Below are positions 10,565-26,213 of a stretch of 64,000 bases of DNA, in pieces. A program made the translations under genes and the position numbers. Numbering within the stretch: the stretch's first letter is position 1; every line of letters starts with the position of its first letter. Below the pieces are notes generated by a model. That model did not search any database. It was not told where the DNA came from and was given only the letters and a program-made list of their open reading frames with translations. The DNA comes from Georgenia sp. M64 (GTDB taxonomy: Bacteria; Actinomycetota; Actinomycetes; Actinomycetales; Actinomycetaceae): contig NZ_CP145809.1 of NCBI RefSeq assembly GCF_038049925.1, positions 3,754,599-3,818,598 on the forward strand, in the 5' to 3' direction.

Positions 10565-11598
10565 CCCAGGGCCTTCCGGACGGCGGCCTCGATCTTGTCC
10601 TGGCGGGGCAGCACCGCGTACTCCAGGTCGTGCGCGTACGGGATCGGGATGTCGGGCATCGCCAGGCGCTGGACCGCCCTGAGCATCGTCGGGTCGTGCT
10701 CGACGACCGTGGCGACGACCTCCCCCGACAGCCCGTAGGACAGGTAGTCCTCGTCGACGACGACGAGCCGGCCCGTCTTGGCCACCGAGGTGAGGATGGC
10801 CTCGCGGTCGAGCGGGACGAGCGAGCGCAGGTCGAGCACCTCCACCCCGATGCCCTCCCCCGCGAGCTTCTCGGCGACGTCGAGCGCGTGGTGGACCGAG
10901 AGCGAGAGCGTCACGACCGTGACGTCGGACCCCGCGTGGACGACGTTCGCCCGGCCGATGGGCACGAGGTGCTCCCCCTCGGGCACGACGTCGATCGAGC
11001 GCCGGTTCTTCGCCATCCACGGCAGGCCCATGACGCCCTTGTGGAACATGTAGACGACCGGGCTGTCGTCCCGGATGGCCGAGGTCATCAGACCCTTGGC
11101 GTCGGCCGGTGTGGCGGGGACGACGACCTTCATCCCGGGGAGGTGGGCGAACGTGCCCCACAGGCACTGCGAGTGCTGACCACCGTCGGAGTACCCGCCG
11201 CCGACCGCCGTCGTCAGCACCATCGGCACCTTGACGTTCCCGCCGGAGAAGTAGTGGATCTTCGCCATGTGGTTGTAGATCTGGTCCAGCGTCACGCCCA
11301 TGAAGTCGGCGAACATCAGCTCCACGATCGGACGCAGGCCCTCGGTCGCGGCCCCGATGCCCAGCCCGATGAACGCCGTCTCGGAGATCGGGGTGTCGAT
11401 GACGCGGTCCTTGCCGAACCGCTCCAGCAGCCCGGTGGTCGAGGAGAAGATGCCGCCGTAGGCACCGACGTCCTCGCCGAGGTAGATGACGGCGTCGTCC
11501 CGGTCCATCTCCAGGGCGATGGCCTCGACCATCGCCTTGGAGGTGCTCAGGCGCCGGTCGGCCCGTGCGGGCTGGACGGGGCTCTCGGTGAGGGTCAT
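10561..11598 (-). CDS. 2-oxoacid/acetoin dehydrogenase E1 component, beta subunit
   Basis: A 345-aa transketolase-like subunit that pairs with E1 alpha to make the thiamine-diphosphate active site. Seen motifs include YLGEDVGAYGGIF, DTPISETAFIGLGIGAA with the ThDP-activating Glu, the QHSQ segment (GGQHSQCLWGTFAHLPG), and the C-terminal transketolase domain with LSVHHALDVAEKL. The ATG at 11598 overlaps the E1 alpha stop (ATGA). The FADFMGVTLDQIYNHMAK segment resembles acetoin and branched-chain E1 beta alike, so the substrate is not settled. Confidence 0.9.
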   Translation of the reverse strand: MTLTESPVQPARADRRLSTSKAMVEAIALEMDRDDAVIYLGEDVGAYGGIFSSTTGLLERFGKDRVIDTPISETAFIGLGIGAATEGLRPIVELMFADFMGVTLDQIYNHMAKIHYFSGGNVKVPMVLTTAVGGGYSDGGQHSQCLWGTFAHLPGMKVVVPATPADAKGLMTSAIRDDSPVVYMFHKGVMGLPWMAKNRRSIDVVPEGEHLVPIGRANVVHAGSDVTVVTLSLSVHHALDVAEKLAGEGIGVEVLDLRSLVPLDREAILTSVAKTGRLVVVDEDYLSYGLSGEVVATVVEHDPTMLRAVQRLAMPDIPIPYAHDLEYAVLPRQDKIEAAVRKALG

Positions 11599-12653
11599 CG
11601 CGCCGCTCCTTCCGCGAACACGTACGTCATGACGTCGGCGGGGTCGGGGGTCGGGGACGACTTCGCGAAGGCGACCGCGTCCTCGACCCGGGCCGAGGCC
11701 GACTCCTTGACCCGGGCGACGGTGGCGTCGTCGAGGACGCCCGCCTCCCGCAGCCGCTGCTCGTACCGAGGGACCGGGTCGAGGCCGGCGACGGAGTCGA
11801 GCTCGGGCCGGTAGCCCTGGGCGTCGCCCTCGAAGTGGCCCCACATGCGCAGGGTCGCGACCTCGATGAGGCTCGGCCCCTCGCCGGCGCGGGCCCGGGC
11901 CACGGCCTTGGCGGCCTCGGCGTGGACGGCCTCGACGTCGTTGTCCTCCACCCGCACGCCCGGGATGCCGTAGCCGGCGGCCCGGTCGGCGTTGGAGGCG
12001 ACGGCGGTCGAGGCGGTGCGGGCGACGGAGATGCCCCACTCGTTGTCCTCGACGACGAAGACGACCGGCAGCCGCCACAGCGCCGCGAGGTTGAGCGACT
12101 CGTGGAAGGCGCCCTGGTTGGCCGCGCCCTCGCCGGTGACGGCGACGGCGATCCGGTCGGTGCCGCGCCGGCGGAACGCGAAGGCCATCCCGAGCGCCGG
12201 GGGGTAGCCCTCGGCGATGATCCCCGAGCAGGAGAAGTGCGTGTCGGGGTCGAACAGGTGCATGTGCCCGCCCCGGCCACGGCCCAGGCCGGTCTCGCGA
12301 CCGAAGATCTCGGCGGTCATCTTGCGCAGGTCGACCCCGTGGGCGACGGCGAAGTGGTGCGGCCGGTGCGTGGCGGTGACGGCGTCATCGGTGGTCAGGT
12401 GGGCGCAGACGCCCGCCGCCACCGGCTCCTGCCCGGCGGAGAGGTGCATCTCGCCGGGCACGAGGCCCTTGCCGATGTCGAAGCCAGGGCCCTTGTCCGC
12501 GTGGTACTCCCGAAGGATCGCCTCCTCGAACGTGCGTGAGAGGACCATCGTCTCGTACAGGGAGAGCCGGACCTCGTCGGGCAGGTGGCGGCCGGCGGAC
12601 CCTGAGTCGGTGGTCTCGGGGACCGGCGCCGCCGCGGAGAGTGATGTCGACAT
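11595..12653 (-). CDS. 2-oxoacid/acetoin dehydrogenase E1 component, alpha subunit
   Basis: A 352-aa subunit that decarboxylates a 2-oxo acid (or cleaves acetoin) using thiamine diphosphate. The ThDP/Mg motif is TGEGAANQGAFHESLNLAAL, followed by WRLPVVFVVEDNEWGISV. The region RGRGGHMHLFDPDTHF is typical of the AcoA/PdhA group. The start at ATG 12653 is set by GGAGG at 12659-12663, five bases upstream; an in-frame ATG further out at 12698 lacks one. It is the first gene of a three-gene operon (E1 alpha, E1 beta, lipoyl protein) with no E2, E3 or AcoX-like gene nearby. The substrate could be pyruvate, acetoin or a branched-chain oxo acid. Confidence 0.9.
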   Translation of the reverse strand: MSTSLSAAAPVPETTDSGSAGRHLPDEVRLSLYETMVLSRTFEEAILREYHADKGPGFDIGKGLVPGEMHLSAGQEPVAAGVCAHLTTDDAVTATHRPHHFAVAHGVDLRKMTAEIFGRETGLGRGRGGHMHLFDPDTHFSCSGIIAEGYPPALGMAFAFRRRGTDRIAVAVTGEGAANQGAFHESLNLAALWRLPVVFVVEDNEWGISVARTASTAVASNADRAAGYGIPGVRVEDNDVEAVHAEAAKAVARARAGEGPSLIEVATLRMWGHFEGDAQGYRPELDSVAGLDPVPRYEQRLREAGVLDDATVARVKESASARVEDAVAFAKSSPTPDPADVMTYVFAEGAAR

Positions 12654-13217
12654 GTGTGCCTCCATTGGCGTGTCCCACCACTGTCGGACGCGTCGCACGG
12701 GGCGGCAACGGTCGATATTTCAGATGGTGATAGCGCGGCGGCACGCGAGGCTGGTGGCGCAGCGGCACGCGAGGCGGCGTGGGCGGAGCACGCGGCGACG
12801 TCGGCACGCGGCGACGCCGGCAGGACGCGCAGCGGCCCGGGAGGCCACCGGACGGCAGGGGCGCCGCGGCCGGGCCTCCCGGGCCCGCTGACGGTCCCGC
12901 ACCCGGCGCCCGGCGACCGGGCGCGTTTCATGGCGACCGGCAGGGGGGGTTTTCCGGTAGCGACCAGCCACCGGGCCCCGGGTGGGGGACGGCTCCGGAT
13001 CCCTCCGGCGCCGAACACCCTCAGGAGAACGGTGACCACGGTCCTGATACATCCGTGCCGGAGGAATCGGTCCGCGCGTCGAGCACCAGCCCCGTTCGCG
13101 GCGTGTATCAGGGGGACGTCCGGCGCGCTCCTCGTCGAGCGGGGCCCTTCCGGGGCCCTGACCAGGGCCCCTACACTGCGGGAGCCGGGGGGCCGGCAGG
13201 ATGACGAGGAGCGGCGC
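12654..13217. other. divergent regulatory region between E1 operon and protease operon
   Basis: A 564-base non-coding stretch. It holds a 9-bp inverted repeat, CCTGATACA (13043-13051) and TGTATCAGG (13104-13112), 52 bases apart and AT-richer than its surroundings, a GC-rich palindrome at 13152-13171, and a candidate promoter for the plus-strand protease operon. Around 12735-12815 the words GCACGCGAGGC and GCACGCGGCGACG recur without a clear unit. No coding frame with a ribosome binding site was found. Confidence 0.5.
13148..13177 (+). promoter_or_regulatory. promoter with palindrome for the protease-sigma-CHAT operon
   Basis: A -10-like TACACT at 13172-13177 lies 40 bases before the GTG at 13218, with a weak -35 (TTCCGG, 13148-13153) 18 bases upstream. 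The spacer is filled by a perfect palindrome, GGGGCCCT-GACC-AGGGCCCC (13152-13171), ending at the -10, a good place for an operator. The leader then carries GAGGAG (13206-13211). Confidence 0.4.
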
Positions 13218-14918
13218 GTGAGCCAGACCGACGACCAGCAGCGACCCCCCACCGACCGCGGGCGCCCGCCGGGCGCGGCCCGGGCCGGCGTGCCCCTGCC
13301 CACCCCGGCCCGGGTGGCCCGGCACGGCGGGCGGGTGCTCGACCCGCTCACCGCCTCTCGCCTGCCCGGCGAGCCCGCCCCTCTGCCGACGGCGTACCGG
13401 GCCGACCGCCTCGTCGTCGCCGGCGAGCACGCCGACGAGGCCCGCGCGGCCATCGCGGACGCCGCCCGCCGACTGAGCCTCGCCGCCGTCGAGGACACGC
13501 GCGGCCGCAGCCTCGCAGCACGCCGCGGCGGCCGGGCCCCGCGCACCCTCACCCTCGAGCCCGCCGCCGTGCGCGAGCTGACGACCCGAGTCGTCGCCGC
13601 TCCGGACGCCTGGGAGGTGCTCCAGCTCGCCCGGTCCGCCGTGCGCCCCGAGGTCCGGGCCGCCATGGGCCTCGACCACATCCTCATGGGCACCGGTCCC
13701 GACATCGGCGGCGCCCCCTTCACCTCGGGGCACGGGGTGGAGGGCGCCCCGTTCACCTCCGGTCACGGCGTCGAGGAGTACGGCCGGGCGGGCTCCGGCG
13801 GACGCCAGCCCGTCTCGTGGCTCGGGGCACCCCCCGTCCGCCGGCCGGCGGCGGACCTGCCCGGCCGCCGGCCCGTCGTCGCCGTCGTCGACACCGGGTG
13901 CGGCGAGCACCCGTGGCTCGCCGACGTCGAGCGCGACCTCGCCCTGCCCGACGGCACCGCGGCGGGCCTGCCCGGCCCCACGCCGGAGGAGTCCGGGGAC
14001 GTGGTCGGCCCGCTCGACGGCGAGCTCGACTCCCACGCCGGCCACGGCACGTTCATCTGCGGGATCCTGCGCCAGCTCTGCCCGGACGCCGACCTCGTGG
14101 CCGTCCCGGTGATGGCCGGCGACGGTGTCGTCCTGGAGAGCGACCTGCTCCACGCCCTGGCCGTCATCACCGAGCTGGTCGAGCTGGACCGCGCCGGGGC
14201 CACCGGTGGGGTGCCGGTCGACGTCGTCGTGCTCTCCCTCGGCTACCACCACGAGGTCCCCGAGGACGCGACGTTCGACACCCCGCTGCTCGAGGCGCTG
14301 CGCGGGCTGGGCCGGCTCGGCGTCGCCGTCGTCGCCGCGGCGGGGAACGGCGCGACCACCGACCCGCTGTACCCGGCGGCGTTCGCCCCGCACGACGGCG
14401 GCCCGGTGCAGCCCGACGGCTGCGTGCCGGTGACGTCGGTGGCGGCGACGAACCCCGACGGCAGCGTCGCGCTCTTCGCCAACGCCGGCGCCTGGGTCAG
14501 CTGCTGGCACCCCGGGGCCGCGCTGGTCTCGACGATGCCGGTGACGTTCCAGGGCGGGCGCCAGCCGCGGGTGTCCTACGCCGGGCCCGGCGGCCACCGC
14601 CGCGCGACCCTGGACCCCGACGACTTCGGCTCCGGCTTCGCCGTGTGGAGCGGGACCTCCTTCGCCGCACCCGTCATGGCCGGGCTCCTCGCGGCGCGTC
14701 TGCTGGACGGGACCTCCACGGGAGCAGCCGGGGAGGATGCGACCGGCGAGGAGGGCGCGAGCGGAGCCGGCGCGACCGACGAGGCCGGCAGTACGCCGGT
14801 GAGCCTCCTCGCGGCGGCCGGGACCCCCGGCGACCCCGTCGCACGCATGGCGGCGCTGGTGGGCGAGCTCGTGGCCGCCTACGCCACGCCCGGCCGCAAG
14901 GCCGAGGTGGGGTCATGA
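13218..14918 (+). CDS. S8 family serine peptidase (subtilisin-like)
   Basis: A 566-aa protease with the full subtilase set: Asp225 in VVAVVDTGCG, His276 in AGHGTFICGIL, the oxyanion Asn in AAAGNGATTDPLYPAAF, and Ser481 in SGTSFAAPVMAG. No signal peptide is seen, so it probably works inside the cell. Residues 1-220 form an N-terminal region without a clear subtilase prodomain; near residues 165-186 it carries an 11-residue tandem repeat (APFTSGHGVEG then APFTSGHGVEE). The start is GTG 13218, six bases after GAGGAG. Its stop overlaps the sigma factor start (ATGA). It heads a four-gene operon with sigma factor, 160-aa protein and TPR-CHAT protease. The cleavage target is unknown. Confidence 0.9.
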   Translation: MSQTDDQQRPPTDRGRPPGAARAGVPLPTPARVARHGGRVLDPLTASRLPGEPAPLPTAYRADRLVVAGEHADEARAAIADAARRLSLAAVEDTRGRSLAARRGGRAPRTLTLEPAAVRELTTRVVAAPDAWEVLQLARSAVRPEVRAAMGLDHILMGTGPDIGGAPFTSGHGVEGAPFTSGHGVEEYGRAGSGGRQPVSWLGAPPVRRPAADLPGRRPVVAVVDTGCGEHPWLADVERDLALPDGTAAGLPGPTPEESGDVVGPLDGELDSHAGHGTFICGILRQLCPDADLVAVPVMAGDGVVLESDLLHALAVITELVELDRAGATGGVPVDVVVLSLGYHHEVPEDATFDTPLLEALRGLGRLGVAVVAAAGNGATTDPLYPAAFAPHDGGPVQPDGCVPVTSVAATNPDGSVALFANAGAWVSCWHPGAALVSTMPVTFQGGRQPRVSYAGPGGHRRATLDPDDFGSGFAVWSGTSFAAPVMAGLLAARLLDGTSTGAAGEDATGEEGASGAGATDEAGSTPVSLLAAAGTPGDPVARMAALVGELVAAYATPGRKAEVGS

Positions 14919-15526
14919 CCGAGCACACCGCGACCTCGGACGAACGGACCGCCACGTCCTCGCCCGTCGCCGACGAGGCTCGCACGGCCTTCGCGGAGTG
15001 GGTCGGCGGCGACCCCGGGGGCCTGGACCGGCTCGTCCGGCTGCTGACGCCGATGCTGTGGAACCTCGCCCGCGCCTACCGGCTGGACGCCGCCACGGCC
15101 GAGGACGCCGTCCAGGCCACCTGGATCGCTCTCGTCCGGCACCGCGAGACGGTCCGTGACCCGCAGGCGGTCCTGCGCTGGCTCAGCGTGGCGGTGCGCC
15201 GCGAGGCGGCCCGCCTGTCGCGGTCCGCGGCCCGGGCCGCCCCCGTCGAGGACGAGACGCTCGCGGCGGTGCTCGAGCCCGAGCCGGGCATCGAGGAGGA
15301 GGTGGTCGCCCGCGACACCGGCGCCCTGCTGTGGCGTCACCTCGCCGCGCTCTCCGAGCGCTGCCAGCGGCTGCTGCGGGTCCTGGCGTTCCAGGACAAG
15401 CCCGACTACCGCGCCCTGTCCGTCGAGCTGGGCATGCCCGTGGGCAGCATCGGACCCACCCGCGCCCGGTGCCTGGGCAAGCTGCGGGCCCTGTGCACAG
15501 CCGACCCCTCCTGGAGCCCCGCATGA
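14915..15526 (+). CDS. ECF-like RNA polymerase sigma factor
   Basis: A 203-aa sigma-70 family protein. Region 2 (about 35-95) contains MLWNLARAYRL, AEDAVQATWIALVRH and a region 2.4-like LRWLSVAVRREAAR. Region 4 (about 145-195) has SERCQRLLRVLAFQDKP and a helix-turn-helix around YRALSVELGMPVGSIGPTRARCLGKL. It overlaps the protease upstream and the 160-aa gene downstream by four bases each (ATGA), so all three are translated in step. It should redirect RNA polymerase to a small regulon, and the partners imply control by proteolysis; this last point is inference. Confidence 0.88.
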   Translation: MTEHTATSDERTATSSPVADEARTAFAEWVGGDPGGLDRLVRLLTPMLWNLARAYRLDAATAEDAVQATWIALVRHRETVRDPQAVLRWLSVAVRREAARLSRSAARAAPVEDETLAAVLEPEPGIEEEVVARDTGALLWRHLAALSERCQRLLRVLAFQDKPDYRALSVELGMPVGSIGPTRARCLGKLRALCTADPSWSPA

Positions 15527-16005
15527 CCACCGACCTCCCCGAGCTCCCACCCGAGGACGCTGAGCTGCTCGAGCTGCTTCGCACGGAGTGGGAGCGCCGC
15601 GACCCGCCGGCCGAGGACCTCGCCGACCGGGTGATCCTCGCGCTCGCCCTGGCCGACCTCGACGCCGAGCTCGCCCGGCTCGAGGCGGAGGTCGAGCTGC
15701 CGGTCGGGGCGCGGGCGGCCGAGCCGACCCGCAGCCTCACCTTCACCAGCGAGCACGCCAGCGTCATGGTGACCCTCACACCCCGCACGACGGGCCGATT
15801 CCGCCTGGACGGCTGGGTGGCGCCGGCGTTCGCGGGGCAGGTGGAGCTGCGCCGGGCCGGTGACGGCGACGACCGCGCCGCGGTGGACGACGACGGCCGG
15901 TTCGTCCTCGACGACGTCGCCGCCGGGCTCGTCCAGCTCGTCTACGTCCCCGCGCCGGGCGGCGACCTCGTCCGCCCGGTGGCCGCGCCGCCCGTGCAGC
16001 TGTAG
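15523..16005 (+). CDS. 160-aa protein between sigma factor and CHAT protease
   Basis: No family is recognised. Residues 1-55 are acidic and helical (LLELLRTEWERRDPPAEDLA then VILALALADLDAELARLEAE). Residues 65-160 look beta-rich, with TSEHASVMVTLTPRTTGRF, a GWVAPAFAGQVELRR strand pair and GRFVLDDVAAGLVQLVYVP, which resembles carboxypeptidase-regulatory-like folds. It is co-translated with the sigma factor (ATGA overlap). There is no membrane segment and no zinc motif, so it is not a classical ZAS anti-sigma factor. Position and size make it a candidate sigma inhibitor or adaptor, possibly cut by one of the two flanking proteases. Confidence 0.75.
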   Translation: MTTDLPELPPEDAELLELLRTEWERRDPPAEDLADRVILALALADLDAELARLEAEVELPVGARAAEPTRSLTFTSEHASVMVTLTPRTTGRFRLDGWVAPAFAGQVELRRAGDGDDRAAVDDDGRFVLDDVAAGLVQLVYVPAPGGDLVRPVAAPPVQL

Positions 16006-16054
16006 GCCCGGCAACCCGGCCCGGGACGCCCCCCGGCTGTGCCACAGTGGGCGG

Positions 16055-18568
16055 GTGCCCGCCGACCCGGCCCTGCTGTGGGAGCGCGCCGTCACAGCGA
16101 GCGAGCGCGGGCGCCCGGCGGCGGCCGTCCGGCTCCTCGAGCGTGCGCTGACCCACGACCCCTCGCCCGACCTGCGGGTCCGCATCCTCATCAGCCTCGC
16201 CCACGCCCGCGCGGAGTCCGCCGGGGTCGGCGAGGGCCTCACCGAGCTCGACCGGGCCGCGCCCGGGCCGGGGTCCGGGGCGTCCGCCCTCGTGCTCGGG
16301 CTCTGGCACGGCCAGCGCGGGCTCCTCCTGCTGCGGGCCGGGCGCCTCGCCGAGGCGGCGGTGGACCTCGACCACGCCGCCGAGCTCATCGGACCCGGCA
16401 GCCCGGTCGACCTCGCCCGCGTCCTGCTCAACCGCGGCGTCCTGGCCATGGGAGCGGCCGACCTCGAGCGGGCCGAGGCCGACTTCGGCCGCTGCCTGGC
16501 CGTCGCCGAGGGCGCCCGGCTCCACGTGCATGCCGCCAAGGCCGGCGCCAACCTCGCCTACCTCGCGCACCTGCGCGGCGACGTCCCGCGCGCGCTGCGG
16601 CTCCTCGACGGCGCCACCCCGGCGCTGGCCGCCGAGTCACCGGTGCTCGGCGCGGTGGCCGCGCTCGACCGCGCGCGGGCCCTCGCGGCCGCCGGCCTGC
16701 TCACCGAGTCGGCGGCGGCGCTCGACGCGGCGATCCCCGTCCTGGGCCGGGCCCGGCTCGTCCAGGACCAGGCCGAGGCCGAGCTCACCGCCGCCGAGGT
16801 CGCCCGGCTGCACGGCGACGCGCGACGCGCGCGCCGGCTCGCCGCCCGCGCGCAGGCCAGGTTCGCTCGGCGCGGCGCCAGCGGCTGGGCGGCGGTCGCC
16901 GAGCTGGAGGTGCTGCGCGCCGACCTCGCCGGCCTCCCGGGAGGCGGGGCGGCCGCGCGCGCGGAGCGGGTCGCCGACGGCGCCGCCGCGCTGGAGCGCC
17001 GGCTCGCTGCCCTCGGGCTGGCCGAGGAGGGGCGGACGGCCCGCCTGCTGCGCGTCCAGGCCCTGCTCGCCGCCGGACGCACCGAGGAGGCGACTCGCGC
17101 CGCCGGCGGCTGGGCCGCCGTCACCGACCCCGACCGGGCCCGCCTCGCCACGAGGATGCTCGCCCACGAGACCCGGGCGAACCTCGCCGCCGCCACGGGC
17201 CGGTCCGCGGCAGCCCAGCGGCTCCGGGCCGCCGGCCTGCGCGACCTCGCCACCTTCCAGTCGCGTCTGGGCAGCCTCGACCTGGCCACCGCCGCCACCG
17301 CCGTCGGCGCGGACCTGGCCCGCGCCGGGCTGGCGGAGGCGCTGCGCGGCGGGCGCACCGCGGCGGTCCTCGCGTGGTCGGAGCGGGTGCGTGCCACCTC
17401 CTCCCGGCTGCCCGCGGTCCGCCGGTCGGCCGACCCCGCGGTCGTCGCGGCGCTCGCGCGGCTGCGCATCCTGCGTGAGACCGAGCGGACCGAGCGGCTC
17501 GCCGGCGCTCCTCGCGACCCGCGCCGCGCCGCTGACATCCGTGAGCTCCAGGAGGAGGTCACCCGCCTCACCTGGCACCACCGGGCCCCCGACCGCGCGG
17601 TCCGCGCCACCTCGCTCGAGGACGTGCGCGCCGTGCTCACCGACGCCACGCTCGTCTCGCTGGTGATCACCGGCGGCGTCGTCCGCGCACTGACCGTGAC
17701 CGGCTCCCGGGCCCGGCTGGTGCCCGTCGCCGCGGCGGCCGACGTGCGGGAGACGGTGCTCCGGGTGCGCGCGGACCTCGACGTGCTCGCCGGCCGCCTG
17801 CCCGCACGGATGCGGGAGACCGTGCTGTCCTCGTTGCACCGGGGTCTGAGCTCGCTCGACGCCCTCACGGCGGGCGCCGCAGACGGTGACGGCCCGGTCG
17901 TCGTCGTCCCGGCGGGTCTGAGCGCCCAGGTGCCGTGGCCGATGCTGCCGTCGCTGACGGGCCGGCCGGTGAGCGTGGTGCCGTCGGCCACGTGGTGGGT
18001 GGACCGGGTCGCCGGCGACGGTGCGGCCGCCGGGAGCCGGGGCGCCGAGGTGTTCGTCGCCGGGCCCGACGTGCCCCGGGGTGCCGCGGAGGTGACGGCG
18101 AGCGCCGGGCCGGGCGCCACGGTGCTCACCGGGCCCGCGGCGACGACCCGGCAGACCCTCGCCGCGATGGACGGCGCCGCGGTGCTCCACGTCGCCGCCC
18201 ACGGCAGCCACGAGGCGGACAACCCCCTCTTCTCCTCCCTCGTCCTCACCGACGGCGCCCTGTTCGGTCACGACCTGGAGTCGGTCGCCACGCTCCCGCG
18301 CCACGTGGTCCTCTCCGCCTGCGAGACGGGGCTGGCGAGCATCCGCACCGGCGACGAGGCGCTGGGGATGACCGCCGCGTTCCTCCACGGCGGCGCCCGC
18401 ACGGTGGTGGGCTCGGTGGGACGGGTCGGGGACGACGTGGCCGAGCAGGTCGCCGTCGCCCACCACCGCGGGGTGCGCTCCGGGCTCCCGCCCGCGGCCG
18501 CCCTGGCCGTCGCGCTGGCGGAGGCCGACGACGTCGCCCCGCTCGTGTGCTTCGGCGCGGGCTGGTGA
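16055..18568 (+). CDS. TPR-CHAT caspase-like protease
   Basis: An 837-aa protein. Residues 1 to about 500 form Ala/Leu/Arg-rich helical repeats of TPR type (for example RGLLLLRAGRLAEAAVDLDHA). The C-terminal CHAT domain spans about 540-837 and has the caspase-like dyad: His716 in HVAAHGSHE and Cys756 in VLSACETGLASIRTGDE, followed by FLHGGARTVVGSVG. Both catalytic residues are intact. It lies 49 bases after the 160-aa gene. A CACAGT at 16043-16048, six bases before the GTG, could give a separate leaderless transcript. Known TPR-CHAT proteases cut specific partners in conflict or stress responses (Csx29 in type III-E CRISPR is the best studied). Confidence 0.9.
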   Translation: MPADPALLWERAVTASERGRPAAAVRLLERALTHDPSPDLRVRILISLAHARAESAGVGEGLTELDRAAPGPGSGASALVLGLWHGQRGLLLLRAGRLAEAAVDLDHAAELIGPGSPVDLARVLLNRGVLAMGAADLERAEADFGRCLAVAEGARLHVHAAKAGANLAYLAHLRGDVPRALRLLDGATPALAAESPVLGAVAALDRARALAAAGLLTESAAALDAAIPVLGRARLVQDQAEAELTAAEVARLHGDARRARRLAARAQARFARRGASGWAAVAELEVLRADLAGLPGGGAAARAERVADGAAALERRLAALGLAEEGRTARLLRVQALLAAGRTEEATRAAGGWAAVTDPDRARLATRMLAHETRANLAAATGRSAAAQRLRAAGLRDLATFQSRLGSLDLATAATAVGADLARAGLAEALRGGRTAAVLAWSERVRATSSRLPAVRRSADPAVVAALARLRILRETERTERLAGAPRDPRRAADIRELQEEVTRLTWHHRAPDRAVRATSLEDVRAVLTDATLVSLVITGGVVRALTVTGSRARLVPVAAAADVRETVLRVRADLDVLAGRLPARMRETVLSSLHRGLSSLDALTAGAADGDGPVVVVPAGLSAQVPWPMLPSLTGRPVSVVPSATWWVDRVAGDGAAAGSRGAEVFVAGPDVPRGAAEVTASAGPGATVLTGPAATTRQTLAAMDGAAVLHVAAHGSHEADNPLFSSLVLTDGALFGHDLESVATLPRHVVLSACETGLASIRTGDEALGMTAAFLHGGARTVVGSVGRVGDDVAEQVAVAHHRGVRSGLPPAAALAVALAEADDVAPLVCFGAGW

Positions 18569-18592: not shown

Positions 18593-19330
18593 TCAGGGGC
18601 GTCCGGCCATCGCGATGAGCCGGGCCGCCCGGCGCAGCTCGTGACGGCGCCCGAGCACGCTGCCGGCTCGCGCGGCCGGGACCGAGACCGCCACCGCCGC
18701 CGAGATCCCCGGCGCGGGCACGGGGGCGGCCAGGCACACCGTCCCGAGGGAGTACTCCTCCCGGTCGACCGCGAGGTCGGTGGTGGCGGCGAGCTGGTGC
18801 ATGAGGACCTTGCGGCTCGTCACGGTGCGCGGGGTCAGGTCGGCCAGCAGGTGGCTCTCGACGTAGTCGCGGCGCTCGTCCTCCGGGAGCGTGGCGAGCA
18901 CCGCCTTGCCCAGGGCGGTGGCGTGGGCGGCGTCGTGGAAGCCCACCCACAGGTCGGTGCGGGGCGCCGCCGGGGAGTCCACGATGTCGACGAGACGGAT
19001 CTCGCCGTCGTCGAGGACGGAGAGGTAGGCCGCGGCGCCGAGCTCGACGTGGAGCTGCTGGAGGATCCGGTGGGTGCGCTGGGGCGGGACGGGCGTGTGG
19101 CGCGCACCGGCGAGCGCGTCCACGTGGTCACCGAGCACGTAGCCCTCGTCGGTGCGCAGCAGGTACCCCTCGTGGACGAGCGTGCGCAGGAGGTGGTACG
19201 CCGTCGCCACCGGCAGCCCGGTGGCGTGGGCGAGGCGCTTCGCGGGCACGGGACCGTCGGCGGCGGCCACCGCGTCGAGGAGGCTCAACGCGCGCACCAC
19301 CGAGTTGATGAGCGTCGGCTGCGGTGCCAT
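18593..19330 (-). CDS. IclR family transcriptional regulator
   Basis: A 245-aa regulator. The N-terminal winged helix-turn-helix (residues 5-65) reads SVVRALSLLDAV, AKRLAHATGLPVATAYHLLRTL, EGYVLGD. The C-terminal IclR effector domain (about 80-240) has GAAAYLSVLDDGEIRLVDIV, the ATALGKAVLA segment and REEYSLGTVCLAAPV. It would bind a small carbon-source metabolite and control nearby or distant catabolic genes. ATG 19330 follows GGGAGG closely. It converges on the CHAT gene and has no catabolic neighbour, so its target is not evident. Confidence 0.9.
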   Translation of the reverse strand: MAPQPTLINSVVRALSLLDAVAAADGPVPAKRLAHATGLPVATAYHLLRTLVHEGYLLRTDEGYVLGDHVDALAGARHTPVPPQRTHRILQQLHVELGAAAYLSVLDDGEIRLVDIVDSPAAPRTDLWVGFHDAAHATALGKAVLATLPEDERRDYVESHLLADLTPRTVTSRKVLMHQLAATTDLAVDREEYSLGTVCLAAPVPAPGISAAVAVSVPAARAGSVLGRRHELRRAARLIAMAGRP

Positions 19331-23625: not shown

Positions 23626-24000
23626 TCAGGCGTCGAACTGGTCAGCGACGGCGCGCAGGAGCTGCGCCAGCTTCTGCCCGTTCTCCGGGTAGTGACCACG
23701 GTGGAGGCTGTTGGAGGTGCGGTCGAGGGTCTTGATGAGGTCCTCGACGATCGGGACCATGTCCTCGGCGGGCATCCGGTGCGCCTTGGCCACCGACGGC
23801 GGGGCCTCGACGACCGTGACGGACAGCGCCTGGGGACCACGACGGCCGTCGGCGATACCGAAGTCGACCTTCGTGCCGGGCTTGGGGGTGATCCCCGACG
23901 GGAGCGCCGAGGCGTGGAGGAAGACCTCACCGCCGTCGTCGGACGCGATGAAACCGAACCCCTTGTCGACGTCGTACCACTTGACCTTGCCGGTAGGCAC
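23626..24000 (-). CDS. cold-shock domain protein with C-terminal extension
   Basis: A 124-aa protein. Residues 1-67 are a cold-shock domain with RNP1-like GFGFIASDD and RNP2-like VFLHASAL, which binds single-stranded RNA or DNA. Residues 70-124 form an extra helical domain (MVPIVEDLIKTLDRT, GQKLAQLLRAVADQFDA), common in actinobacterial CspA-type proteins beside DUF3027. The start is GTG 24000, eight bases after GAGG. It probably acts as an RNA chaperone. Confidence 0.92.
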   Translation of the reverse strand: MPTGKVKWYDVDKGFGFIASDDGGEVFLHASALPSGITPKPGTKVDFGIADGRRGPQALSVTVVEAPPSVAKAHRMPAEDMVPIVEDLIKTLDRTSNSLHRGHYPENGQKLAQLLRAVADQFDA

Positions 24001-24119
24001 GGTTCTTACCTCTTCTGTCGTCACGAACGAAAGCGCCGGCGGTCGCCGGCGCCACCGGTCCAGGGTAGCGGGGCGCCGAGCACCTCGCCGCCGCCTTCGC
24101 GCGCCACCGTGCCGTGCCG

Positions 24120-24335
24120 GCGAGCGAGTCCGGCAGGCCCGAGGCGAGCGAGTCTGACAGGCCCGAGGCGAGCGAGTCCGGCAGGCCCGAGGCGAGCGAG
24201 TCCGGCAGGCCCGAGGCGAGCGAGTCCGACAGGCCCGAGGCGAGCGAGTCCGACAGGCCCGAGGCGAGCGAGTCCGACAGGCCCGAGGCGAGCATGTCCG
24301 GGCGGGCCGAGGCGAGCAGCTCCGGCGGGGCGGTA
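24120..24335. repeat. 24-bp tandem repeat array (seven perfect-length and two decayed units)
   Basis: Units of GCGAGCGAGTCCGGCAGGCC plus CGAG run head to tail from 24120 to 24287 (seven copies), differing only at GTC(C/T)G(G/A)CAG. Two decayed copies follow to 24335. Because 24 is a multiple of three, all frames stay open and would encode octapeptides such as ESGRPEAS, but the downstream gene has its own start and ribosome binding site at 24393. The array fills most of the 392-base gap between the divergent cold-shock and SseB-like genes and is a likely site of length variation. Confidence 0.85.
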
Positions 24336-24392
24336 GCGCGGCGGCGGACGGTGCGCGAGGCTGGAGGTGACCGCGTCGCCCGGAGGATCTCG

Positions 24393-26213
24393 ATGGCCGA
24401 GACACCGCTCACCCGCCAGGCCGCCCTCATGAAGGACCTGGGGATGTGGGTCCACCGCGCCTCGGCGCCGGGCTGGGACGAGATCCGGCTCCTCCTCAAG
24501 CCGGTCGGTGAGGCCGTCCACGTGCGCATCGAGGAGGTCCGGGGCCAAGGCTCGGTCGTCCGCACCGGCGAGCTGGCGCCCGGCTCGCAGGCGTACTCGG
24601 ACGTCCACGAGCTGCGGGACCTGCTCTACGCCCACCCGTCGGGAACCTGGCACACCTTCCTCATCCACCTCCACGCCCGTCACTGGCCCGCGCCCACGGT
24701 GGCGGTGGACGGCGTCGCGGACTACGACGACGAGCCGCCGCACTGGGAGGAGGGCGAGGGCGCCGACCTCTCCGCCGAGGACCTCCTCGAGGACTACACG
24801 ACCTACCCCCGCACCCGGGAGGCGACGCCGGAGTGGGTGGTGCGCCGGGTCGCCGAGGCCGGGCTGCACCTGCCCTACATCCCGGCGGACGAGTCGACCC
24901 CCGGGCGGTGGCCGGTGGTCGACGCCGGCTCCCTGGGCGGGGCCGACGGTCCCGGCGCTCCCGCGCCGCGGGCGGTGACGGACACCCGCTCGGGCCACCG
25001 CCACGTGCCCCGCCTCGCCGCGCCGCCCGAGCGGCTGACGGTGCTCGTCGACCGCGACGGCATCCCGTACGAGGACGGCCGCCGCCCGCAGCAGCACCGT
25101 CGGACGTTCCCCGGCGGCGCCTCGGTGCTCGAGATCCTCGACGGCCTCGGCCTGCCCCTGGAGTTCGTCGACGGGCACGGCACCTGGATGGTCGTGCGCG
25201 GTACGAGCGGGGCGGACGGCGCACACACGCTGGGCGTGGTGGTCCAGGAGGGCCGGGGCGCGGTCGCGCACGTGACGACCGACCTCGAGCCCTGGCAGCT
25301 GGCCGACGAGGAGGGCGAGCTCGCGCTCTACTACCGCTCGGTACCGGGACCGCCCGCGGAGGTCGTGGCCGCCGCGGAGCTCGACGAGATCTGGACGCCG
25401 ACCCGGCCGCGCGGCGCGGTGGCGGACAACCTGCCGGTGCGGCGGGCGCTCGAGCGCTACTCCGCGGCCCCCGGCGCCGACCGCGGCCTCGACGTCCTGC
25501 GGCAGGCGCTGGGCGGGCAGCTCCTCCTCGACTGCACGGGCACCGTGCTGGGCCCGGACGGCAAGCCCACCAGGGTGGTCGTGAACTTCGTGACGGCGCC
25601 CGACGGCGAGAAGGCCCTGCCCGCGTTCACCCACCACTCCGAGCTGGTGGCGTTCCGCCGCGACGACGACGGCGCCGCCCGGTCCCTCGTCCAGCCGGCC
25701 CACGGCGTGCTGGAGTTCTTCGTGGCCGACGGCGACGCCGCCTGGCTCTACATCAACCCCGCCGGCCCGCCGCTAGGCATCCACCGCGACCAGGTCGAGC
25801 TCGCGCTGCGGCCGGGGCACAACGCGGCGGTGAAGAACGCACTCATGGGCTGCGGCCCGACCGGCGTCCCGCTCGGCCCGCACCACGATCGTCCGCCGTC
25901 GATGCAGGTGCTCTTCGACGCGCTGCGCACCGAGGGCGGGTTCCTCTTCCTCGGCGACCGGACTGCCGCGGGCCCCGGCACCGGCACCGGCACCGGCACC
26001 GGCACCGGCACCGGCACGCTCCTCGCGTACAGCTCGGCGGTCGAGGTCGCCGCGTACGACCGCTCCCTGCCCTTCCGTCGGACGGAGGTCCGCCGGGTGC
26101 TGGAGCAGGTGGTCTCGGACGGGCTCGACGTCCTGCGCATCAACCCCGGCGGGCCGCAGGCGGAGATCCCGACCGAGCAGGTGCGCCGCTTCCTGGGGCT
26201 CACGCCGGCCTGA
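24393..26213 (+). CDS. SseB-like multidomain protein
   Basis: A 606-aa soluble protein. Residues 1-85 (MKDLGMWVHRASAPGWDEIR, EIHELRDLLY-like segment and WHTFLIHLHA) resemble YezG/DUF600-type immunity-like domains. A middle region holds further copies of the same kind (LVDRDGIPYEDG). The C-terminal part contains two SseB N-terminal-like units (about 345-460 and 470-606), recognised by LYINPAGPPLGIHRDQVELAL and VLRINPGGPQAEIPTEQVRRFL. The start is ATG 24393, seven bases after GGAGG; the frame stays open further up only because of the 24-bp repeats. A (GT)n linker sits near residue 530. The function is unknown. Confidence 0.7.
   Translation: MAETPLTRQAALMKDLGMWVHRASAPGWDEIRLLLKPVGEAVHVRIEEVRGQGSVVRTGELAPGSQAYSDVHELRDLLYAHPSGTWHTFLIHLHARHWPAPTVAVDGVADYDDEPPHWEEGEGADLSAEDLLEDYTTYPRTREATPEWVVRRVAEAGLHLPYIPADESTPGRWPVVDAGSLGGADGPGAPAPRAVTDTRSGHRHVPRLAAPPERLTVLVDRDGIPYEDGRRPQQHRRTFPGGASVLEILDGLGLPLEFVDGHGTWMVVRGTSGADGAHTLGVVVQEGRGAVAHVTTDLEPWQLADEEGELALYYRSVPGPPAEVVAAAELDEIWTPTRPRGAVADNLPVRRALERYSAAPGADRGLDVLRQALGGQLLLDCTGTVLGPDGKPTRVVVNFVTAPDGEKALPAFTHHSELVAFRRDDDGAARSLVQPAHGVLEFFVADGDAAWLYINPAGPPLGIHRDQVELALRPGHNAAVKNALMGCGPTGVPLGPHHDRPPSMQVLFDALRTEGGFLFLGDRTAAGPGTGTGTGTGTGTGTLLAYSSAVEVAAYDRSLPFRRTEVRRVLEQVVSDGLDVLRINPGGPQAEIPTEQVRRFLGLTPA
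25977..26017 (+). repeat. GGCACC hexanucleotide repeat inside the SseB-like gene
   Basis: Six perfect GGCACC units (25977-26012) plus a partial one, coding for a (Gly-Thr)n linker within the last SseB-like unit. Loss or gain of units keeps the frame, so it would only change linker length. Confidence 0.8.

Follow-up and report, generated by a model that had tools for sequence, protein, structure and literature searches.

We identified, in Georgenia sp. M64 (NZ_CP145809.1, positions 3,754,599 to 3,818,598; this whole stretch of 64,000 nucleotides is referred to here as the window), a four-gene cassette encoding an S8 subtilase zymogen, an ECF-type sigma factor, a 160-aa protein (S160) and a TPR-CHAT protease. 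The cassette is real and widespread among many actinobacterial genera, its gene neighbourhood being already known. Its most striking part is a short tandem peptide array carried by the subtilase, which is near-identical within a protein and different between lineages. The features, with positions in the window, are as follows.

13024..13050, - strand: second, divergent copy of the promoter-like motif, pointing toward the gene at 11595-12698, about 350 bases off
13105..13131, + strand: promoter-like motif GTATCAGG..CTCC, upstream of the operon
13218..14918, + strand: S8 subtilase zymogen, 566 aa (Pfam Peptidase_S8, 1.1e-14), with a prodomain (about aa 30-160), an array-bearing linker and a catalytic domain
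13710..13775, + strand: tandem array, GAPFTSGHGVE twice, spanning aa 165-186 of S8 in the linker that joins prodomain and catalytic domain
14915..15526, + strand: ECF-type sigma factor, 203 aa (TIGR02937, 53.3 bits against a cut-off of 42.9; Pfam Sigma70_r2, 2.7e-9)
15523..16005, + strand: S160, candidate soluble anti-sigma factor (AlphaFold2 fold; weak CarboxypepD_reg matches in relatives)
16055..18568, + strand: TPR-CHAT protease, 837 aa, with His716 and Cys756 (Pfam CHAT, 2.3e-25)

Conservation and distribution of the cassette

The first-pass annotation had described four co-directional genes, the leading ones with ATGA overlaps, and two proteases with complete catalytic sets, and this description was borne out. 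All four ORFs lie on the + strand in the order S8, sigma, S160 and TPR-CHAT; the overlaps were found at the first two junctions (S8/sigma and sigma/S160), and the CHAT gene starts 49 nt past the end of S160. The catalytic residues are kept in the aligned relatives: the S8 triad D225/H276/S481 and the oxyanion Asn377 are invariant in 70 of 70 rows, and CHAT His716 and Cys756 are each at least 90% conserved in 53 rows. The subtilase thus has the triad, the oxyanion Asn and the prodomain of a peptidase S8 zymogen, with no signal peptide apparent on reading its sequence, and the TPR-CHAT protein combines a Pfam CHAT match over the cut-off with the His/Cys pair of a CHAT peptidase. In PADLOC, CHAT had a weak BovA match (3.6e-5), and no match was found for S8, sigma or S160.

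Two other genes, named by reading, flank the cassette: a dehydrogenase E1-alpha-like gene (11595-12698, - strand), upstream of and divergent from it, and an IclR-type regulator-like gene (18593-19330, - strand), convergent with CHAT and ending just past it. Elsewhere in the window, at about 23930-24560, the ORF listing revealed a short tandem repeat open in several frames (LASGLSDS-like and RTRSPRAC-like).

Conservation of the neighbourhood across actinobacteria, which had been suggested as a check, held strongly. In loci picked by their sigma factor (the best 80 of at least 571 relatives), S160 was the next cassette gene in 79, CHAT was present in 73 and S8 in 76, and thus the arrangement is far beyond chance; the single exception for S160, L178, stops at a contig edge. 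A more distant sample was picked by S160, as the analyst's choice of 40 among the places listed in a class-wide S160 profile search; here a sigma factor lay upstream in 39, with CHAT in 31 and S8 in 25. From the two sigma adjacency counts, sigma and S160 form the constant pair, CHAT comes next, and S8 is the mobile part, its gene being located before sigma, after S160, or inverted. Six loci (L186, L187, L203, L206, L208 and L221) had a sigma-S160 pair with neither CHAT nor S8 detected within 5 kb, and such pairs are possibly a minimal form.

A CHAT search across the order gave matches in 50 of 198 genomes. With the S160 profile, matches came from 110 of the 394 genomes searched in the class; in one family the figure was 149 of 221, and in another order 119 of 293. 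Among the genera that carry the sigma-picked cassettes are Nocardioides, Microbacterium, Cellulomonas, Micromonospora and Tessaracoccus. The cassette CHAT is the only CHAT found in its own genome, and the cassette S8 is one of seven S8 proteins there.

The tandem peptide array and its candidate readers

The AlphaFold2 model of the window S8 (pTM 0.88) has a confidently folded prodomain and catalytic domain, with pLDDT below 50 at aa 165-174 and 176-181, so that the array is probably disordered. Foldseek aligned the model, over 466-487 columns, to two subtilisins in their unautoprocessed form, pro-subtilisin E and pro-Tk-subtilisin, at a query TM of only about 0.36-0.39, and going by this model the array would sit at the expected maturation junction of S8.

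Within the main clade, the majority of the S8 linkers that were located contain an array, mostly with a 6-aa unit (for instance NPFHST, NPLHDS, HPYTQP, GYGDGV or PYYAGV) in 2 to 12.7 copies; loci L073-L102 are left out of the array and motif counts. Of 148 unique located linkers, 121 had at least 2 copies and 114 at least 3. A group of loci (L236, L237, L243, L245-L248 and L258-L262) has a short S8 linker with no array detected, and offers a natural comparison.

The two units in the window have 6 identical and 5 synonymous codons. Comparison of neighbouring units over the 121 unique arrays gave 1795 identical, 1129 synonymous and 46 nonsynonymous codons (38% differing synonymously and 1.5% nonsynonymously), a nonsynonymous/synonymous ratio of 0.041 against 3.17 for random single-base changes; the loci fetched after discovery, taken alone, gave 714, 439 and 21. 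Between lineages, on the other hand, 94 distinct units occur in 114 loci, and the first three unit letters require at least 63 changes on the tree. A neutral minisatellite whose copies are kept alike by slippage or gene conversion would fit the range of copy numbers, but hardly the excess of synonymous over nonsynonymous differences or the serine codons, which switch between AGC and TCC from unit to unit. Although detection by amino acid identity is biased against nonsynonymous change, no array was detected in only 24 of 154 located linkers, and we regard the neutral explanation as very improbable. The array copies probably change in concert, and their sequence is afterwards maintained.

To find what reads the array, we compared divergence of the unit with that of each protein region as a partial association. 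The discovery set of 78 loci was obtained by dropping identical S160 rows, loci with CHAT below 350 bits, those with fewer than 1.9 copies or with units longer than 11 aa, and, by hand, L037, L038, L039 and L060. In this set the TPR domain had the highest association (0.223; 0 of 300 permutations as high), followed by the S8 catalytic domain (0.134; 1 of 300) and S160 (0.117; 2 of 300). Predictions were fixed before 100 new loci were fetched, 38 of which were usable after dropping identical S160 rows, CHAT below 350 bits, and array scores below 4 or fewer than 1.8 copies. The TPR test failed on these 38 loci (0.051; 104 of 500 permutations as high), and both the S8 catalytic domain (0.174; 14 of 500) and the CHAT domain (0.146; 25 of 500) stood above it; the five TPR columns chosen beforehand reached p = 0.064, the value for column 169 being 0.344.

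Over 53 tree-independent pairs drawn from 114 loci, which include the discovery loci again, the TPR association was 0.425 (p 0.0015) and that of the S8 catalytic domain 0.341 (p 0.0095). S160 (0.197), the CHAT middle region (0.191) and the S8 prodomain (0.187) each stayed above 0.05 (p 0.086-0.099), and no positive association was found for sigma (-0.137) or for the CHAT domain, which was strongly negative (-0.499). Perhaps these associations are leftover phylogeny, with distant pairs differing everywhere and the TPR domain evolving fast. The failure on the new loci agrees with this, as does the greater distance of pairs whose unit had changed (median 0.65 vs 0.24), and the outcome of the ratio test hinges on the reference protein: measured against the CHAT domain, TPR divergence was in excess (p 0.0004), and measured against sigma it was not (p 0.22). 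Against it, the 53-pair test takes its pairs from tree paths that do not overlap and corrects for six other regions, and we consider residual phylogeny quite possible while leaning away from it. Taken together, the co-divergence tests give moderate evidence that the array is recognised both by the TPR domain and by the cleft of S8.

The best TPR column is Tyr169. By reading, 99 of the 102 loci whose unit has Pro as its second residue carry an aromatic residue in this column, and none of the 12 loci without that Pro does so (11 Gly, 1 Ala). Stacking of Tyr169 on the array Pro was nevertheless rejected, as only 2 of 4 independent pairs co-change (p 0.5) and as 24 of 26 loci lacking an S8 array, by the threshold of that comparison, have an aromatic residue in the column as well. 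A contrast of groove with non-groove TPR columns was likewise set aside (MWU p 0.13; label permutation 0 of 300).

The S8 result can also be explained without CHAT as a reader, if the array is the subtilase's own multiplied maturation (or pseudosubstrate) site, fitting the S8 active site. The array does lie at the prodomain/catalytic junction, where pro-subtilisins autoprocess, and in all three comparisons, with the discovery loci, the new loci and the independent pairs, divergence of the S8 catalytic domain follows that of the unit. The top S8 columns are A374 in the AAAGN motif (ranked first among the old loci and 12th among the new), which by subtilisin numbering would be in the wall of the S1 pocket, and F353 (second in both); Ser at column 374 goes with every unit that starts with N. 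However, column scores agree weakly between the old and new sets (r 0.14), Pro is the second residue of most units, so that the position of an S8 cut is not evident, and over independent pairs the TPR domain follows the unit too.

A like array also occurs where S8 is missing, on a trypsin-like protease. Among 184 core-CHAT loci, 14 had no S8 in the fetched stretch, and in 6 of these (L035, L041, L050, L238, L239 and L240) a PFTE/PFTQ array was identified on a divergent trypsin-like gene, whose Pfam matches, Trypsin_2 and Nal1_C, are both under the cut-off; no PFT[EQ] array was found in the fetched stretches of the remaining 8. This too weighs against a purely autocatalytic role, and we consider that role rather unlikely. 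A divergent copy of the promoter-like motif precedes the trypsin-like gene in L035, L041, L050 and L240, and among the matches listed none does so in L238 or L239. A search of the cassette's own genome for a relative of the PFTQ protein gave a single match, to a low-complexity stretch of ATEP; the protein that contains it is unrelated and reads as 5'-nucleotidase-like, and the match was discarded.

The promoter-like motif, the sigma factor and S160

Of 251 regions preceding the first gene, some of which share a species, 177 contain a motif of the form GTATC-N17/18-CTC. After removal of near-duplicates, and with the window included, the exact GTATCAG occurred in 80 of 166 upstream regions and in none of one shuffle. 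Within the 64-kb window alone the motif is not significant, since 11 of 100 shuffles give at least 2 matches. In the whole genome, GTATCA-N-CTCYT had five sites, two of them at the operon, and the reversed pattern had none; the three sites beyond the operon had no convincing target. Sixteen other genomes had 53 sites against 11 reversed (0-9 per genome, by the analyst's sum), one genome having none. From its position and conservation, the motif is a candidate promoter recognised by the cassette sigma factor; a consensus scan for sigma-70 promoters and terminators found none.

A further copy of the motif follows CHAT in 58 of 170 loci. Behind it we identified papain-like proteases in L118 and L312 (7e-40 and 6e-36), a second subtilase in L116 (6e-42), and in L155 (10607-12790) a 727-aa protein with no Pfam match and with relatives in seven further loci; several of the other ORFs picked up there are apparently spurious frames or ordinary genes, and we make no claim for them.

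The sigma factor is ECF54-like, as assigned by gene context. Its C150 and C186 are invariant in 22 aligned sigma rows. The link between S160 and the sigma factor, which had been proposed in the first-pass annotation, is well supported by their near-invariant adjacency, which extends to the six loci where no protease of either kind was detected within 5 kb. Coupling analysis did not clearly separate the two proteins from nine control pairs (113 of 30000 pairs over the threshold, 0.38%, vs 0.11-0.24%), this being also the shortest pair of all. An apparent natural sigma-S160 fusion in L091 has sigma region 4 in another frame and was treated as a frameshift artefact, which may be a sequencing error.

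In Pfam and NCBIfam, nothing matched the window S160 over the cut-off (best Pfam E 0.051). Weak matches to CarboxypepD_reg were found for 22 of 26 members of its family (E<=0.1, best 5e-5), but not for the window protein itself. Folded alone by AlphaFold2 (pLDDT 90.4, pTM 0.62), it has helices at 10-26 and 33-56 and seven strands between 70 and 143, read as a beta-sandwich. Its fold matches (best 50 of 694) include CBM56, FN3, CnaB-like and other folds, with a best PDB E of 7e-3, and none among these 50 is described as an anti-sigma factor. No known anti-sigma family was among the profile matches of S160. Since S160 adjoins the sigma factor, and by analogy with Craspase, it is plausibly a soluble anti-sigma factor that would be removed by proteolysis.

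Alternatively, the proteases might act on the sigma factor itself, as in the proposal of proteolytic ECF54 control without an anti-sigma factor that is reported in the accessible part of PMC8999054; S160 would then be, by our own extension, an adaptor or substrate presenter. The lack of a match between S160 and any anti-sigma family agrees with such a role. However, sigma precedes S160 in 39 of the 40 S160-picked loci, including those with neither protease within 5 kb, as expected of a sigma partner, and we find direct proteolysis of sigma unlikely.

A proposed switch and its relation to known systems

We therefore favour, tentatively and with somewhat less than even confidence, a protease-controlled, self-amplifying switch of an ECF54-type sigma factor, with the array read by the TPR domain and S160 as the inhibitor. 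S160 would hold the sigma factor, and TPR-CHAT would act as both sensor and executor, its TPR groove recognising the tandem peptide on the partner protease (on the S8 linker or on the trypsin-like protein). This contact may bring CHAT and the partner protease together, or else the processed array may supply an activating peptide. CHAT, the matured S8, or both would then destroy S160, and the freed sigma factor would bind the GTATC-N17/18-CTC promoter; transcription of the operon and of protease genes close by would then amplify proteolysis in a response to stress or conflict. Observed are the conserved cassette and motif, the catalytic residues, the array with its codon pattern, and the neighbouring genes. 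The inhibitory role of S160, binding of the array by TPR, recognition of the motif by this sigma factor, the order of cleavage, and the trigger and purpose of the switch are the steps that we infer. The failed TPR test on the new loci speaks against the switch, as do the 24 of 154 located S8 linkers, and the 8 of 14 loci lacking S8, in which no array was detected.

A bolder version, which we hold to be doubtful, is an intracellular peptide relay, in which the array is a multi-copy precursor carried by a protease, the released lineage-specific peptide is read by TPR as a password, CHAT frees the sigma factor, and sigma boosts a portable protease set. RRNPPA receptors (Rap/PlcR/NprR) are TPR proteins that read a short peptide encoded nearby, as is proposed, by analogy only, for the cassette TPR. 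The cassette, on the other hand, has no sign of peptide secretion or import, and its effector would be the CHAT protease.

If the favoured switch is correct, it would explain the control of the ECF54 group and extend the logic of Craspase to a system with no known CRISPR parts. Its signal would be an unusual one: a short peptide array, found on two protease families, whose sequence changes from one species to the next even though its copies stay alike. With a candidate sigma promoter now predicted, the regulon and the role of S160 are open to testing.

The novelty first attributed to the neighbourhood was too strong, and the first-pass annotation made no mention of the array, the motif or the variable neighbours. 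PMC8999054, the only paper with the word ECF54 among the matches listed, describes in its accessible part ECF54 sigma factors adjoining carboxypeptidase, subtilase and CHAT proteins, and the cassette has this same context of ECF sigma, subtilase, CHAT and a carboxypeptidase-type gene. It differs in that the S160 relatives match only a carboxypeptidase regulatory-like domain and that our sigma factor is assigned by context alone; the array, the promoter motif and the variable neighbours are not mentioned in that part of the paper. No description of the constancy of the sigma-S160 pair, the tandem array or the GTATC-N17/18-CTC motif was found in the literature searched. In a title- and abstract-level search, covering few subscription papers, no published account of the array, the motif or the combined system was recognised, and in the accessible part of PMC7159879 neither a sigma factor nor CHAT occurs.

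In the EACC2-caspase systems, according to the accessible part of PMC8195603, genes for caspase-like peptidases adjoin an ECF sigma factor and a TPR protein, which resembles the present arrangement. The four proteins here have no EACC2 or STAND NTPase domain in Pfam, and the peptidase partners are others.

In the type III-E Craspase, the TPR-CHAT protease Csx29 cuts Csx30, a sigma inhibitor (PMC10028731, accessible part), and in both cases a TPR-CHAT protease is linked to an ECF sigma factor (CASP-sigma in Craspase) and a partner protein. The present cassette, in which the first-pass annotation saw no CRISPR part, adds the S8 subtilase with its peptide array, and its CHAT protein scores 32.3 bits with the Csx29 model, under the cut-off of 300. 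By this analogy, a Craspase-like switch in the cassette is plausible.
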